From: Marispirochaeta aestuarii
GTDB taxonomy: Bacteria; Spirochaetota; Spirochaetia; JC444; Marispirochaetaceae
Length of the DNA stretch: 64,000 nucleotides
Direction of reading: 5' to 3'
NCBI RefSeq assembly: GCF_002087085.1
Contig: NZ_MWQY01000005.1
Coordinates: forward strand, 62,001-126,000
The notes below the pieces were generated by a model. That model was not told where the DNA came from. It saw only the letters and a list, made by a program, of their open reading frames with translations, and searched no databases. The position numbers and the translations under genes are program-made. Position 1 is the first letter of the stretch. Each line of letters starts with the position of its first letter. Shown here one piece after another: positions 2,226-45,256 of the stretch.

Positions 2226-3284
2226 TCAAGTTGCAGATTCAAGCACAAACTCCTTCATGTCGTGTTCATTCAGATAGCGTTTAAAACGGATCTCCTTCCA
2301 TAGGCCGTTCCAGACAGGCGGTATCCGTTCTTTCAGGGAGGTGAAAATCGGAAGCTCCGGACTGAAGGACTCTTTTTTCAGATGATTCTGTATCTCTTCT
2401 ATCTCCGGCTCTATAAACTCGAGAGCCCTCTTCAGGCGGGGGACCCCCCGGCGTCGTCCTTCAGGATCGGGATCCAGAAGGGCATGACAGAGGGAACGGT
2501 ATTTACAGGTAAAAGGGTAGTAGGGGTAAAGGCTGGTCTCCCGGGGAATGAACAGACGGGAAAAGAACTTCGTCAATTCATGATCGATCCATATGCCCTG
2601 GACAAAATAGCCCCTGCCGGTTTCTCCTATCCAGGTCTGGGAGATAATCTGTCTGACAATAAAACCGGTGACCCTTCGTTCGTCCAGGAGTATTTCATCC
2701 AGGGGGATCAGATCACAGTCCAGATAGATATTCCGGGTACGGTAACGAGGGGTACGGTCATTGCCGCCATGATCGATCATTTCGCCGTCATGAGTCCGAA
2801 AGCTCAGGTCCAGTCGTCCAAGATACAGAAATGAGAGCTTGTTGAGGCGGAAAACCTGAAAAAAACAGGGACGAAGGACTTCTGAGGCATCAAAATAGTA
2901 GCTGGTCTCATGGAAAAACCCGGGAATAAGGGGAAGCAATGCTTCAATTACCTGCCGTACAGGCGCAAGGTACTCCTCTTTCGGGGTGCTGCGGCGAATG
3001 TCATGATGGATGGGAATTCCTGGAACCTCGATTTCTTCGGGCAATTTAAGAAAAAATTCCTCGTTCTGGTTGAAATGCTGAGGCAGCACAAGGCTTTCGG
3101 ATGATAAGGAACGGATCATTTCGTTGATCCGGGAATCAGTATACCGGACCGGTATTGTATTGACGGTGGTATCCACTGTGCACATCATACTGACATCCCG
3201 GGCGAAATTCAACAACAATAACAATTCCGGTAAAGCCTTCGGGGGGCCTTGACTTTGGCGTCGAATACCCTGCATACTCCTCAT
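2226..3284 (-). CDS. conserved-looking protein of unknown function
   Basis: I do not recognise this family. The protein is up to 352 residues, soluble, with no signal peptide or membrane span. It is rich in aromatic and acidic residues, with a PFTCKYRSLC segment and several predicted beta-rich stretches in the middle. The start is uncertain. The first 30 residues have a low-complexity look, and the in-frame ATG codons near 3191 and 3188 are plausible alternatives, but none has a clear Shine-Dalgarno sequence. The gene runs directly into murD with overlap, so it may be expressed with a cell-wall gene. The long continuous frame on the same strand as murD, with no stronger frame opposite, supports it as real. 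Confidence 0.6.
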   Translation of the reverse strand: MRSMQGIRRQSQGPPKALPELLLLLNFARDVSMMCTVDTTVNTIPVRYTDSRINEMIRSLSSESLVLPQHFNQNEEFFLKLPEEIEVPGIPIHHDIRRSTPKEEYLAPVRQVIEALLPLIPGFFHETSYYFDASEVLRPCFFQVFRLNKLSFLYLGRLDLSFRTHDGEMIDHGGNDRTPRYRTRNIYLDCDLIPLDEILLDERRVTGFIVRQIISQTWIGETGRGYFVQGIWIDHELTKFFSRLFIPRETSLYPYYPFTCKYRSLCHALLDPDPEGRRRGVPRLKRALEFIEPEIEEIQNHLKKESFSPELPIFTSLKERIPPVWNGLWKEIRFKRYLNEHDMKEFVLESAT

Positions 3285-3326: not shown

Positions 3327-3381
3327 AATGAGCGGGAATCCGGATACAAACCCAAACTAAAAGAGAAAGGAGCCGGTTGCT

Positions 3382-3471
3382 GTGCCTTGCGGACGAAAAA
3401 GAAAGCGACATAAGATTGCGACCCATAAGCGGAAAAAAAAGCTTCGGAAGAACCGACACAAGAAGAAATAA
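3382..3471 (+). CDS. 29-residue basic mS38/COX24-like (AURKAIP1 domain) small protein
   Basis: A GTG-initiated frame encodes MPCGRKRKRHKIATHKRKKK followed by LRKNRHKKK. More than half of the residues are Lys, Arg or His. This pattern (MPCG-KRKRHK-ATHKRKK-LRKNRHKKK) is the short protein annotated in Bacteroidetes and spirochaetes as an AURKAIP1/COX24-domain protein. It is related to the C-terminus of mitochondrial ribosomal protein mS38 and to mycobacterial bS22. The likely role is therefore a small-subunit ribosomal protein bound to rRNA, by homology only. A strong Shine-Dalgarno AAAGGAG at 3366-3372 sits nine bases before the GTG. The gene is too short for usual gene finders. It is followed at once by a large hairpin (3472-3523) and then the FlgH-like gene. 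Confidence 0.85.
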   Translation: MPCGRKRKRHKIATHKRKKKLRKNRHKKK

Positions 3472-3523
3472 CAAGGTTGACAAGGGATTGGCCGTCCGCA
3501 GGGATGCCAATCCCCGAACCTTG
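3472..3523 (+). promoter_or_regulatory. two-tier RNA stem-loop between the mini ribosomal-type gene and the FlgH-like gene
   Basis: The outer stem CAAGGTT (3472-3478) pairs perfectly with AACCTTG (3517-3523). The inner stem GGGATTGGC (3484-3492) pairs perfectly with GCCAATCCC (3506-3514). The bulges are five and two bases and the apical loop is 13 bases. The structure begins one base after the TAA of the mini gene and ends 13 bases before the ATG of the next gene. No U-tract follows on either strand, so it does not look like a standard intrinsic terminator. A processing signal, translational control element or transcript-stabilising structure are the alternatives. Confidence 0.6.
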
Positions 3524-3536
3524 ATGGTTCTCCCAT

Positions 3537-4316
3537 ATGAGACGTTTGACAGCCCTTCTATCAGCATTAATCCTTTGTACTGCCTTACTTGGTGCTGATA
3601 GTCTTGTACCCCCCGATTTCCCCGGCTATCTGAGCGCCGCCGGATCTCTGCAGGTTGGAGATCTGGTGGGGGTAAGAATAGATTCTGAAACTTCCATGAC
3701 CTATACCTCATCTTTCAGCACCGCCGGAAGCGTTTCTCTTACCTTTACAGGAGGCGAGGGAGATGGACTTTTCAATTTTCTTCCTTCCGGCTCCAGTCAA
3801 AACCAGTCCACCGCAGACGGCGAAGAGGAAAGCATTCTGTCTACCCGGCTGGGGGCGCGTATTGTGCAGACCGGACCTTCCGGTGCCGTTTTCCTGCGGG
3901 GCAGCAGAGAAACGCGGATAGACCGGGCAGTTCAGCGTGTGGAAATAGAGGGCTGGGCAAATATTCGTGACCTGGACGAGGATGCTACAGTCGACTTCGA
4001 TAAGCTGGCCGATTCGGTTCTGGTTTTCTCCAGTTTTATCCGCGGAGATGAACAGGTTATTACTGATACAGACCTTCAACGCCCGGAAGAGGCACAGGCT
4101 CCACCGGAAGAAGAAGCGGCGGCAGGGCAGGAGCTTCCACTGCTGCCGGAAGGCGAAGAGGTGCCGGAAGCCCTGAACGAAATACCTGCAGAAAATTTAC
4201 CTGTGGAGACGCAGCAGACAGGAAGTGCGTATACCTTGTCCGAAGATACCCGCCGGAGACTGCTTCTTGAATATATAAATAATATGATATATCTGTTGTT
4301 TTCTCCTGCAGAATAG
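3537..4316 (+). CDS. FlgH-like flagellar L-ring family protein, exported
   Basis: The 259-residue protein starts with a signal peptide (MRRLTALLSALILCTALLGA). The segment LQVGDLVGVRIDSETSMTYT matches the FlgH core where the family has VGDiltV-I-E. VEIEGWANIRDLDEDATVDF then KLADS matches the L-ring VRP-DI-NtV-S-IADA region. FlgH builds the L-ring around the flagellar rod in the outer membrane, although spirochaete flagella are periplasmic and often lack a typical ring. An acidic, proline-rich tract at about residues 185-230 replaces the usual ending, followed by a hydrophobic C-terminus. No Shine-Dalgarno sequence precedes the ATG; the upstream hairpin occupies that space. An unrelated periplasmic protein is possible. 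Confidence 0.55.
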   Translation: MRRLTALLSALILCTALLGADSLVPPDFPGYLSAAGSLQVGDLVGVRIDSETSMTYTSSFSTAGSVSLTFTGGEGDGLFNFLPSGSSQNQSTADGEEESILSTRLGARIVQTGPSGAVFLRGSRETRIDRAVQRVEIEGWANIRDLDEDATVDFDKLADSVLVFSSFIRGDEQVITDTDLQRPEEAQAPPEEEAAAGQELPLLPEGEEVPEALNEIPAENLPVETQQTGSAYTLSEDTRRRLLLEYINNMIYLLFSPAE

Positions 4317-4349: not shown

Positions 4350-6290
4350 ATGGATGATTCCCTGTTAAATACAATAAACGGTCCTGAAGATCTTCGTAAG
4401 CTGGAAAAGAACAGTCTCCCCCGGCTTGCCCAGGAGATACGGGAACGCATTATAAGCGTTGTAAGCAGAAACGGCGGACATCTGGCCAGTAACCTTGGGG
4501 CTGTTGAGTTGAGCATGGCCCTGCACCTGGTTTTTGAATCACCGAAGGACAAGCTGATCTGGGATGTGGGACACCAGTGTTATACACACAAGCTCCTGAC
4601 CGGCCGAAACAAAAGTTTTGACGGTATCCGTAAAAAAGACGGTATAAGCGGATTTCCAAAAAACAGCGAGAGTCGCCACGATATCGTGGAAACCGGGCAT
4701 GCATCGACTTCCATCTCCGAGGCCCTGGGGGTTCTGACCGGTCAGGAAGTGGCAGGAGCTGACGGGGCAGTGGTCGCGGTAATAGGCGATGGTGCAATGA
4801 CCGGAGGCATGGCCTTCGAGGCTTTGAATCATGCCGGCCATCTGAAAAAACAGCTGATAGTCGTACTGAACGACAACACCATGTCCATCAGCAAGAACGT
4901 CGGCGCCCTTACGGTCAGCGGTAAATGGCTTTTATCCAGTTATTTGAGCCGGCTCTTCGCTTCCAAGAGGTATCAGAGGCTGCGAGAAAAGTTTGACCAG
5001 GGAATAAAGGGACTTCCCCTTATCGGTATGAAGCTCTTTGATCTCAGTGTACGCATACGGAAGGGTTTCAAGGCGGTTCTCTATAAAGAGAGTATTTTTT
5101 CGGATCTCGGTTTTGAATACGTCGGACCCATCGACGGTCACAGCATAACAAAGCTGAAAGAGGTTTTTGAAGAGGTCAAAAAGATCGGCCGGCCGACGGT
5201 TGTCCATGTGGTAACCCAGAAGGGCAGAGGATACGAGCATGCCGAGGGTAACCCGACGCTTTTCCACGGGATTGCCCCCTTTACCGTCGAAGACGGAAAG
5301 CTGACCGAGAGGGCTTCCTACTCCTTCACAGCGGCTTTTTCCGACAGCATCCTGCGGAACGCCGAATCCGACAAGCGAATCACGGCTATAACTGCAGCCA
5401 TGTCCAAGGGAACAGGTCTGCATGCCTTCCAGGAGCGCTTTCCTGATCGATTCTTTGATGTGGGAATTGCAGAGGAGCACGCAGTAGCTTTCGCGGCTGG
5501 ACAGGCACGCTCCGGATGCCGTCCGGTTGTGGCCATCTATTCCACCTTTATGCAGCGCACCGTGGACCAGGTTATTCACGACATCGCCCTTCCCGGCCTT
5601 CCGGTCGTCATTGCCATGGACAGGGCAGGACTGGTCGGAGATGACGGTGAAACCCATCAGGGTATTTACGATATCGCCCTCTTCAAGGCTGTTCCCAATA
5701 TGACGATCCTCGCTCCAGGCTGCAGGCAGGAGATGGCAGCCGCCATGGATTATGCTTTCAGACTGAACAGCCCCTGCATGCTCCGCTATCCCAAGGGAAG
5801 CGCCCTGGGATGGGAGGATCTTGCCGATCCCTGGGAGACCGGCAGAGGGAAGCTCATAAGTGAAGGACCATCCAATACTCTGCTGATAAGTCCCGGCAGT
5901 CTTCTGAAGGAGGCCCGTTCCGCCACGGCAGGACTTCGGGAAGAGGGAATCTACTGTGACATATACAATCTTCGCTTTATCAAGCCCCTGGACGAGGATT
6001 ATCTTGCAGAGCTGCTTGATTCCTATTCCAACGTAATATGTATCGAAGATGCAGCCCGCATCGGCGGTATCGGTGAGACCCTGGCTTCCATCGTTCAGCA
6101 GCGCCAGCTGAACTGCGGTTTCGCATATTACGGTCTTCCGGATACCTTCTATGCCCAGGGGACCCGGGAGGAGCTGCTCGCGGAGTTCGGACTCGACGCG
6201 GCCGGGATAATCGGCCATATAAGAAAATCAGAAGAGTCAGAGCTCGCCCTCTACAGTTATAACCGCAAACAGAAAGCCGAGGGAGCCTGA
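4350..6290 (+). CDS. dxs: 1-deoxy-D-xylulose-5-phosphate synthase
   Basis: Dxs condenses pyruvate and glyceraldehyde-3-phosphate, with thiamine diphosphate, to DXP, the entry to the MEP isoprenoid route and a precursor of thiamine and pyridoxal. The 646-residue length is typical. The thiamine pyrophosphate motif GDGAMTGG is at 146-153 with NDNTMS near 174, DVGHQCYTHK with the catalytic His is near 72-80, and the transketolase pyrimidine-domain motif DVGIAEEHAV lies in the second half. A Shine-Dalgarno GGAG lies seven bases before ATG 4350. The gene is 33 bases after the FlgH-like gene on the same strand and may share its transcript. The identification is firm. Confidence 0.97.
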   Translation: MDDSLLNTINGPEDLRKLEKNSLPRLAQEIRERIISVVSRNGGHLASNLGAVELSMALHLVFESPKDKLIWDVGHQCYTHKLLTGRNKSFDGIRKKDGISGFPKNSESRHDIVETGHASTSISEALGVLTGQEVAGADGAVVAVIGDGAMTGGMAFEALNHAGHLKKQLIVVLNDNTMSISKNVGALTVSGKWLLSSYLSRLFASKRYQRLREKFDQGIKGLPLIGMKLFDLSVRIRKGFKAVLYKESIFSDLGFEYVGPIDGHSITKLKEVFEEVKKIGRPTVVHVVTQKGRGYEHAEGNPTLFHGIAPFTVEDGKLTERASYSFTAAFSDSILRNAESDKRITAITAAMSKGTGLHAFQERFPDRFFDVGIAEEHAVAFAAGQARSGCRPVVAIYSTFMQRTVDQVIHDIALPGLPVVIAMDRAGLVGDDGETHQGIYDIALFKAVPNMTILAPGCRQEMAAAMDYAFRLNSPCMLRYPKGSALGWEDLADPWETGRGKLISEGPSNTLLISPGSLLKEARSATAGLREEGIYCDIYNLRFIKPLDEDYLAELLDSYSNVICIEDAARIGGIGETLASIVQQRQLNCGFAYYGLPDTFYAQGTREELLAEFGLDAAGIIGHIRKSEESELALYSYNRKQKAEGA

Positions 6291-6344: not shown

Positions 6345-7814
6345 CTAATATCGCAGACTCTTCATGGAAGTCATGAATCCCCGCAGTCTGGCGCCCACGG
6401 TTTCGACGGGGTGGTTTCTGATTTCCCTGTTTACCCTGATCAGTTCTACATTGTCCACGTCGTTACTGCCGCCTTTAAAACTCTTTCCCGCAACATCGGT
6501 ATCGATTTTTTTCATGAAGTCCTGCAGCAAAGGAACGCAGTCGTTTGCAAAGAGGTAACAGCCGTACTCAGCGGTGTCGGAGATTACCTTGTTCATTTCA
6601 TACAGCTTCTTACGGCCGATAAGATTCGCGATCAGCGGTACCTCATGAAGGGATTCATAATAGGCCGATTCCGCCTTTATTCCGGAAGAGGTCATGGTTT
6701 CGAAGGCCAGCTCGACTCCGGCTTTTACCATGGCTACCATGAGGACTCCGTGGTCGAAATACTCCTGCTCGCTGATCTCCATGGTCCCGGTAGGGGCTTT
6801 TTCAAAACCCGTACTGTTGGTTTCTTCCCTCCAGCGTAGAAGGTCTTTGTCGTCGTTTTTCCAGTCCTCCATCATGGTGGAGCTGAACTTTCCGGACATT
6901 ATGTCGTCCATATGCTTCTGATAGAGAGGAGTCATAAGCTCCTTCAGCTCCTCGGAAAGTTCGAAGGCCCTGATCTTGGCGGGATTGGAGAGGCGGTCCA
7001 TCATGTTGGTTATGCCACCGTGCTTCATGGCTTCGGAAACAGTCTCCCATCCGAACTGTACAAGTTTACAGGCGTAATCTTCCTTGATGCCTTTTTCGAC
7101 CATCTTGTCAAATATAAGAATGGAACCGGTCTGGAGCATGCCGCAGAGAATGGTCTGTTCTCCCATGAGGTCGGATTTTACCTCCGCAATAAAGGAGGAC
7201 TTGAGTACCCCCGCCCGGTGTCCACCTGTACCGGCGGCATAGGCCTTGGCCAGTTCAAGCCCTTCGCCCTTCGGATCGTTTTCCGGATGAACCGCGATCA
7301 GGGTGGGAACGCCGAAACCTCGTTTGTACTCTTCCCTGACTTCTGAACCCGGGGATTTGGGGGCGACCATTATGACCGTGATATCCTCACGGATCTGTTT
7401 TCCCTCTTCCACGATATTAAAACCGTGGGAATAGAGGAGGGCAGCTCCCTTTTTCATGAGGGGCATGATGGTGTCTATAACGGCTGAGTGTTGTTTGTCA
7501 GGGGTAAGATTGGCCACAAGATCAGCCTGGGGAATCATTTCGTCATGGGTGCCTACGGCAAAACCGTTCTCCGTGGCATTGATAAAAGACTGACGTTTCC
7601 GGCTGATTGCCTCCGCCCTCAGGGCGTAGGAGACGTCAAGGCCGGAGTCGCGGAGATTGAGTCCCTGATTCAGCCCCTGGGCACCGCAGCCCACAATCAC
7701 GATCTTTTTTCCCTTCAGCTTTTCAACTCCGGAAAATTCCGCGGAGTCCATGAAGTCGCAGGTGCCCAGCTGTTCGAGCTGTCTGCGCAGGGGAAGTGAA
7801 TTAAAATAGTTCAT
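6345..7814 (-). CDS. ilvC: ketol-acid reductoisomerase, class II (long form)
   Basis: IlvC isomerises and reduces acetolactate or acetohydroxybutyrate with NADPH and Mg2+ in valine, leucine and isoleucine synthesis. [18 protein letters not shown] near residues 42-59 is the nucleotide-binding loop. The 489-residue length, with a duplicated C-terminal helical domain, is the class II (E. coli-like) form rather than the 330-residue class [20 protein letters not shown] and [14 protein letters not shown] are conserved IlvC motifs. The gene stands alone, divergent from the double ATPase protein, with its own sigma-70-type promoter. leuCD lie elsewhere in the window, so the branched-chain pathway is dispersed. 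Confidence 0.96.
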
Positions 7815-17069: not shown

Positions 17070-17076
17070 AAGCTAT

Positions 17077-17106
17077 CAGGGAGCATTATTCCAATAATGC
17101 TCCCTG
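17077..17106. terminator. bidirectional hairpin between the dehydrogenase and histidine kinase genes
   Basis: CAGGGAGCATTATT (17077-17090) is mirrored perfectly by AATAATGCTCCCTG (17093-17106). The central A/T pairs would open to form the loop. It lies between two convergent genes. The T-tract is poor, but the A/T-rich top and the position suit a shared terminator. Confidence 0.65.
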
Positions 17107-17115
17107 CATTCGAAA

Positions 17116-44731: not shown

Positions 44732-44803
44732 AGCGAGAGACGGGACTTGAACCCGCGACATCCACCTTGGCAAGGTGGAGCTCTACCACTGAGCTACTCT
44801 CGC
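44732..44803 (-). tRNA. tRNA-Gly (anticodon GCC)
   Basis: The 72-base tRNA has acceptor GCGAGAG/CTCTCGC, discriminator T and D-arm GCTCAGTGGTAGAGC. The anticodon stem CCACC/GGTGG encloses the loop TTGCCAA, giving GCC. The T-arm is GCGGGTTCAAGTCCCGT. CCA is not encoded. Confidence 0.96.
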
Positions 44804-44821
44804 GCGAATTGCAGGATCTAT

Positions 44822-44903
44822 TGCGAGAGAAGGGACTTGAACCCTTACACCTTTCGGCACTAGATCCTAAGTCTAGCGTGTCTGCCAATTCCACCACTCT
44901 CGC
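44822..44903 (-). tRNA. tRNA-Leu (anticodon TAG)
   Basis: The 82-base class II tRNA has acceptor GCGAGAG/CTCTCGC with discriminator A. The anticodon loop CTTAGGA between CTAGA and TCTAG gives TAG. A variable arm and the T-loop GGTTCAAGTCC are present. It lies 18 bases upstream of tRNA-Gly. Confidence 0.95.
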
Positions 44904-44914
44904 GATGGAGCCCC

Positions 44915-44942
44915 ATTATACACACTAAACTGTTTTCGTCAA
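44915..44942 (-). promoter_or_regulatory. promoter between tRNA-Lys and tRNA-Leu
   Basis: On the minus strand TTGACG (44942-44937) and TATAAT (44920-44915) are 16 bases apart, directly before tRNA-Leu. Upstream, CCCGGG repeats (44944-44972) form a long-loop hairpin that may end the preceding tRNA transcript. Confidence 0.7.
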
Positions 44943-44981
44943 CCCGGGCTATTTTTGTTTTTTACCCCGGGTTTCCGATAT

Positions 44982-45054
44982 TGAGCCGTGAAGGGATCGA
45001 ACCTTCGACCCGCAGATTAAGAGTCTGCTGCTCTGCCAGCTGAGCTAACGGCCC
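44982..45054 (-). tRNA. tRNA-Lys (anticodon CTT)
   Basis: The 73-base tRNA has acceptor GGGCCGT/ACGGCTC with one G-U pair and discriminator A. The anticodon stem GCAGA/TCTGC encloses CTCTTAA, giving CTT. The D-arm is AGCTCAGCTGGCAGAGC. Confidence 0.95.
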
Positions 45055-45061
45055 AATTGAT

Positions 45062-45135
<74 letters not shown>

Positions 45136-45183
45136 ATTCAAAGGCTCCTTCCGGTGCAAAATTCCAACAGGAATAAAGCAAAG

Positions 45184-45256
45184 GGTGGGCAACGGGATTT
45201 GAACCCGCGACACCCAGAACCACAATCTGGTGCTCTACCACTGAACTATGCCCACC
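45184..45256 (-). tRNA. tRNA-His (anticodon GTG)
   Basis: The 73-base tRNA has acceptor GTGGGCA/TGCCCAC with an encoded extra G at the 5' end opposite discriminator C, as required for histidine tRNA. The anticodon stem CCAGA/TCTGG encloses TTGTGGT, giving GTG. A TTGACA lies about 35 bases upstream and may be its promoter. Confidence 0.95.

Follow-up and report, generated by a model that had tools for sequence, protein, structure and literature searches.

The gap between a small ribosomal-protein gene and a gene of the flagellar L-ring protein family in Marispirochaeta contains a 52-nt hairpin (3472-3523), and there is good evidence from comparison of three genus sequences, with covariation from one divergence, that it is a selected RNA structure. 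Based on its structure, its position flush with the upstream stop codon, its conservation in the genus with compensatory changes, the lack of a U-run behind it and the lack of a Shine-Dalgarno (SD) sequence before the downstream gene, we favor, at about an even chance of being right, the hypothesis that it serves the bS22 transcription unit as an intercistronic 3'-end and insulator element. Taken by itself, the hairpin is well conserved yet of an ordinary kind, and the larger point is the recurrence of the bS22-flgH pair with a gap that varies from lineage to lineage. The window is the whole 64,000-nt stretch of DNA that was analysed, and positions are counted from its first base. Its relevant features are as follows.

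3249-3278, plus strand: possible promoter of bS22, a weak sigma70-like match (9 of 12 positions; consensus scan only, with about as many sites as in shuffles)
3368-3372, plus strand: SD sequence of bS22, AGGAG, 9 nt 5' of the GTG (sequence)
3382-3471, plus strand: bS22 gene, GTG start, 29 aa, TAA stop at 3469-3471
3472-3478, plus strand: outer stem, 5' arm CAAGGTT, directly adjoining the bS22 stop
3484-3492, plus strand: inner stem, 5' arm GGGATTGGC (sequence, fold, genus comparison)
3494-3505, plus strand: apical stem GTCC/GGAT with loop GCAG (minimum-energy fold)
3506-3514, plus strand: inner stem, 3' arm GCCAATCCC (sequence, fold, genus comparison)
3517-3523, plus strand: outer stem, 3' arm AACCTTG, no U-run after it (sequence, fold)
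3537-4316, plus strand: flgH-like gene (flagellar L-ring protein family; PF02107, E 3.1e-14), ATG without an SD sequence
4350-6290, plus strand: dxs, 1-deoxy-D-xylulose-5-phosphate synthase (PF13292, E 8.7e-115), the next gene 3' of flgH

The frame at 3382-3471 translates to MPCGRKRKRHKIATHKRKKKLRKNRHKKK. An earlier sequence-only reading had called this mini gene ribosomal-type, and we can now be more specific: by sequence similarity it is bS22, a known ribosomal protein. Profile searches of Pfam and NCBIfam gave no match to it, and phmmer aligned 28-29 residues with chains of solved ribosomes (7jil_5, 9i5v_10 and 8fmw_V; E 8e-09 to 1.9e-08), whose names are S22/L38, AURKAIP1/COX24 domain protein and bS22. 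Of the 394 class genomes, the window's own among them, 369 encode the protein, and among the matches listed its identity to the window copy is 83-100%. According to a passage of PMC10618245, the bS22 of Borrelia likewise starts with GUG, was unannotated and was recognised through a ribosome structure. Divergent from bS22 lies a 352-aa frame (2226-3284, minus strand) that matches no Pfam or NCBIfam model.

The sequence-only reading had described two perfect stems of 7 and 9 pairs, without a U-tract, exactly between the two genes. Both stems are present and perfect in the window (3472-3478 with 3517-3523, and 3484-3492 with 3506-3514), the inner one is capped by a 4-bp apical stem (3494-3497 with 3502-3505, one pair being G-U), and the T runs of the tail ATGGTTCTCC are all 2 or shorter. 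The placement holds on the upstream side, where the hairpin starts with the first base after the bS22 TAA, but is slightly generous on the other, where it ends 13 nt before the flgH ATG at 3537, the intervening sequence being ATGGTTCTCCCAT. The 60 nt after the bS22 stop fold at -30.3 kcal/mol versus -17.3 +/- 3.1 kcal/mol in dinucleotide shuffles, and sliding 60-nt windows fold as well in 17 of 12,788 cases (64 kb, both strands). A 91-nt fold gives -32.8 (z -3.73). Across 464 kb of the same genome, with open frames of at least 100 codons counted as genes, 154 genes are followed by a gap of 40 nt or more, and 10 of these have a hairpin of -25 or better at the 3' end; thus, the window hairpin is strong, not unique. 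Such hairpins are commoner at 3' ends than in intragenic windows (3/335; Fisher p 0.0009). The genome has further strong, U-poor hairpins where genes end, at 17070-17115 of the window and at the ends of C1:73341-75281 and C1:241879-242220; an example between convergent genes is CAGGGAGCATTATTGGAATAATGCTCCCTG.

Two other kinds of element were considered. A repeat or REP-like element is rejected, as the 4.21 Mb genome holds a single copy of the junction and a single copy of the spaced inner-stem motif. A DNA operator is disfavored: the distance between the inner arms differs by 3 bp (13 nt in the window's genome, 16 nt in its congener G001), which argues for RNA rather than a DNA operator. Rfam has no match for the hairpin, and the six matches in the window at gathering score are all tRNA. 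Five tRNA genes are clustered at 44732-45255 on the minus strand.

The comparison set comprised the window's genome (G000), the genus genomes returned by the searches (G002 and G001) and a family-mate (G003). The hairpin is kept in all three genus genomes, 0 nt after the bS22 stop and without a U-run behind it, and the bS22-flgH gap measures 62-65 nt. The FlgH-like product of G000 is identical to that of G002 at 181 of 253 positions and to that of G001 at 116 of 255; the four-fold silent sites of flgH are identical at 50 of 97 and 17 of 68, the latter being the chance level. In G001 all 18 bases of the inner stem GGGATTGGC/GCCAATCCC are those of G000, and the third and fourth outer pairs have changed on both sides, from A-U and G-C to G-C and A-U, so that 2 of the 5 anchored outer pairs carry double changes. 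Given that the silent sites of G001 are scrambled and the stems are kept, the structure appears to have been selected as RNA. In G002, which is closer to G000, the seventh outer pair is lost and the inner-stem bulge is shifted, as judged by eye. The 60-nt folds have z scores of -4.24 (G000), -3.91 (G002) and -4.44 (G001), with 1, 0 and 0 of 1000 shuffles as good, and in 78-nt folds the outer-stem probability of the first base is 0.97, 0.77 and 0.97, respectively. The family-mate G003 lacks the window's hairpin. An exact search for the spaced inner-stem motif, which misses G002 and whose reversed control matched one genome (G122), found it in 2 of 394 class genomes, G000 and G001, both times at the bS22-flgH junction. 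For the sequence-only reading, stems that relatives do not conserve, or that lack compensatory changes, would have been the refuting result, and it did not occur. As three of three genus genomes keep the stems and G001 adds two double changes, the hairpin may reasonably still be taken to act in processing, in forming the 3' end or in coupling or decoupling the genes.

If the hairpin is the 3'-end and insulator element of the bS22 unit, bS22 would be made abundantly and flgH sparsely. Polymerases that pass the bS22 stop would enter the poorly translated, C-rich start of flgH and may in part be ended by Rho. Exonucleases working 3' to 5' would next degrade the RNA as far as the hairpin, which would protect a short, stable bS22 mRNA. 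In the full-length RNA the hairpin behind the stop would hinder terminating ribosomes from restarting at flgH, leaving flgH weakly expressed. In keeping with such a scheme, the window hairpin is GC-rich, stands behind a gene and has no U-tract, and a Rho RNA-binding domain is encoded in all three genus genomes. In each of them C exceeds G by 10 in the 114 nt around the flgH start, an excess that 27 of 370 gene starts in G000 reach and that falls in a stretch that is also signal-peptide-like coding sequence. Hairpins that are GC-rich and lack a U-tract have been described at RNA ends that were trimmed following Rho termination (PMC13289151, in part), 623 likely Rho events have been mapped in Borrelia according to an excerpt of PMC10319736, and a library screen, as summarized in part of PMC12548453, found that predicted structure directly after the stop codon correlates negatively with coupling. 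Several points count against the 3'-end reading. G000 and G001 share every base of the inner stem, which is more than a plain stabilizer needs, though G002 departs from it. Whether the outer stem is predicted also depends on how much sequence is folded: the 60-nt fold of G002 has a small hairpin GAACC/GGTTC in its place, and in the 100-nt fold of G000 the 3' arm of the outer stem pairs instead with the downstream GGTTC. Finally, when U-poor strong hairpins are counted separately, their excess at 3' ends falls short of significance (5/154 versus 3/335 intragenic windows, p 0.12).

The gene pair itself extends far beyond the genus. A FlgH-like match was found in 16 of 78 genomes searched, the window's included, and bS22 lies just upstream in all 16. 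In a set of 80 chosen loci, a FlgH-like frame follows bS22 in 31, from 12 families; the model used to find these frames was itself made from six of them. The gap differs between families, and none of the other 28 flgH-adjacent gaps read holds a sequence like the window hairpin. A hairpin of -22 kcal/mol or better begins within 8 nt of the bS22 stop at 10 of 79 usable loci (G000, G001, G002, G207, G225, G011, G147, G354, G069 and G375), a set in which some genomes are GC-rich and part of the stems are coding sequence. None of the ten has a TTTT tail by the script's test. Those adjacent to flgH are in G000, G001, G002, G207 (family f29) and G225 (family f35); the hairpins of G207 and G225 are strong, U-less and, by eye, unlike the window's in sequence. 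It would therefore be too strong to claim that a stop-flush bS22 hairpin is private to the genus, since similarly placed hairpins occur in G207, G225 and others. These unrelated stop-proximal hairpins fit a general role at the end of bS22 better than a specific binding site.

The comparison of gaps also bears on whether the hairpin is instead a U-less intrinsic terminator or attenuator, in which the hairpin itself would pause and partly stop polymerase and set the bS22:flgH ratio without Rho. Hairpins with T runs stand in the bS22-flgH gap of G015 and G003 and, by eye, after bS22 in G146 and G010, where no FlgH-like frame was found downstream, and these favor a terminator, as does the very stable GC-rich stem. 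A GC-rich hairpin is thus in place, but no U-tract directly follows it in any of the three genus genomes, although terminators with a T run do occur in G000, one of them between dxs and the gene at 6345-7814 that converges on it. We regard this alternative as unlikely.

Translational coupling would make use of the same position differently: the stem would bring the bS22 stop near the flgH ATG, and terminating ribosomes would restart there. As the sequence-only reading had noted, the FlgH-like gene has no SD sequence. Reading the sequence upstream of flgH gave no SD-like string in G000, G002 or G001, and the position of the ATG is kept in G002 and G001. In 464 kb of G000, 183 of 369 gene starts (the longest possible start of each gene being taken) have an SD-like string before them, versus 64 at a control offset, so that the SD-less flgH is notable, not rare. 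Coupling is also favored by the distance of 0 nt between stop and hairpin, by the 62-65 nt gap, and by G037 and G063, from other families of the class, in which bS22 and flgH are 1 nt apart. In G231 (L103) and G195 (L098), moreover, the predicted fold has two tiers, starts directly at the bS22 stop and includes the SD of flgH as well as its ATG, a layout that would suit ribosome-dependent unfolding. However, the window hairpin covers neither SD nor ATG, and 65 nt is long for reinitiation. The negative correlation in the library screen (PMC12548453, in part) also speaks against coupling, and we doubt that coupling is the explanation.

A switch acting on flgH, in which an RNA-binding protein or a small RNA would recognise the conserved inner stem, is quite unlikely. 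It would account for the 18 of 18 identical bases in G001 despite randomised silent sites, and none of the other genomes among the 394 has the exact spaced motif. In another order, 12 of 21 genomes have in this gap a hairpin of another kind, in which the flgH SD is buried, and this too speaks for a switch. However, the inner stem has changed in G002, the closer relative, the window hairpin leaves the SD and ATG positions uncovered, and Rfam offers no match. Autoregulation, in which the bS22 protein would bind the hairpin and repress its own operon like classical ribosomal-protein operons, was the part of the sequence-only reading that found no support and is very improbable: although bS22 is a basic protein in the 16S rRNA pocket of h2, h27, h44 and h45 (PMC10618245, in part), it is class-wide and highly conserved whereas the hairpin is recognised in one genus only (369 of 394 genomes versus 2 of 394 for the exact inner stem, a search that misses G002; G003 lacks the hairpin), and the hairpin lies after bS22, away from its ribosome-binding site. 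A 16S rRNA search of the window's assembly gave no match.

The SD-burying hairpin belongs to the order of G231, for which 26 genomes were available, 22 of them with a flgH match and 21 of these with bS22 upstream. In 12 of the 21 the 3' arm of the hairpin is the flgH SD and the string GATAAT lies in or next to the loop; the other nine lack it. These 12 are distributed over families f37 (7), f39 (3) and f32 (2), at loci L103, L098, L093, L068, L074, L156, L157, L100, L060, L064, L071 and L067. Among the eight distinct sequences 46 of 48 cells are paired and 1 of 6 pairs shows a double change, from A-U to G-C in f32; the covariation score is equalled or exceeded in 54 of 500 shuffles. A looser form of the pattern matches at other places too in 15 of 17 genomes, in some cases well paired (G036). 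GATAAT resembles a promoter -10, possibly a sigma28 one, and part of PMC9481697 gives CCGATAA as the -10 and TTAA as the -35 of Treponema denticola flaB2. By eye, the promoter-like spacing at flgH is variable. A scan for TAAA-N14-16-CCGATAA matched in 5 of 5 genomes, in part no more commonly than its reversed control, and flagellin upstream regions carry TAAA-N16-(C/T)CGATCA, not GATAAT, in only 3 of 21 cases (G000, G002 and G133). One flagellin gene each of G000 and G002 (L229 and L230) has a sigma28-like TAAA-N16-CCGATCA upstream. TAAA-N16-CCGATAA also occurs on the opposite strand about 80 bases upstream of a flagellin match (G000:C14:11173-11199, minus strand; G002:C3:878292-878318, minus strand). 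In the f29 genomes G124, G207 and G036 (L087, L088 and L084), a GATA(T/C)TA block precedes the flgH SD with no pairing 5' arm, by eye; the DNA motif may predate the hairpin.

From its sequence, the SD-burying GATAAT hairpin seems a more interesting lead than the window hairpin, with a possible promoter-in-a-hairpin control. We tentatively suggest, as an idea with a fairly low chance of proving correct, that the bS22-flgH gap is an old control point, rebuilt differently by different lineages so that the abundant ribosomal-protein message does not drive the flagellar-ring gene. In f32, f37 and f39 it would have become an SD-locking hairpin with a promoter-like GATAAT, such that read-through transcripts would be silent and translation confined to RNA that starts within the hairpin, the logic of T4 gene e on a cell chromosome; in Marispirochaeta it would have become the flush hairpin.

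The downstream gene is of interest in its own right. Its product scores 53.4 bits against PF02107 (cut-off 27) and so belongs to the FlgH family, and all nine NCBIfam FlgH equivalog models listed score far under their cut-offs for it. FlgI (PF02119; L129) is encoded on another contig, beside apparent flgG, flgA and flgJ genes (named by eye); flgH is therefore separate from that cluster. A review (PMC7693769, in part) states that the L ring is absent from spirochetes, with which a spirochete genome that holds both a FlgH-family gene (3537-4316) and flgI stands in contrast. The finding points to a member of the L-ring protein family in organisms said there to have no L ring.

If the 3'-end and insulator reading is true, the hairpin would add another example of a small ribosomal-protein gene being cotranscribed with the gene of a scarce structural protein whose output does not rise along with it. 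In addition, bS22 and flgH as neighbors in 12 families, with differing RNA between them, form a compact natural series for testing the effect of the gap on expression ratios.

Among known systems, ribosomal-protein autoregulatory leaders also place a ribosomal-protein gene beside a structured RNA, as bS22 is placed here, but the window hairpin is downstream of the gene and limited to the genus. In the rpsU-dnaG-rpoD operon of E. coli an abundant small ribosomal protein comes first and a scarce product next, with a classical terminator between them. The order of bS22, hairpin and flgH is alike, although the genes are others and the window hairpin has no U-run. The leaders of T4 gene e, soc, 49 and I-TevI, as described in part of PMC3014915, bury the SD in long transcripts and have a promoter-like hexamer upstream of or in the loop; they resemble the SD-burying hairpin of the other order, where the promoter is putative, and not the window's, which buries no SD. 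The window hairpin is like the 3' hairpins attributed to Rho plus trimming in a passage of PMC13289151, whose case organism may, judging from that passage, be E. coli: it is GC-rich, stands behind a gene and has no U-tract, in a genome where Rho is present, and the excess of C over G downstream of it would fit as well, though it would also fit signal-peptide coding sequence. It differs from them in being flush with the stop codon and in lying within a recurring gene pair.
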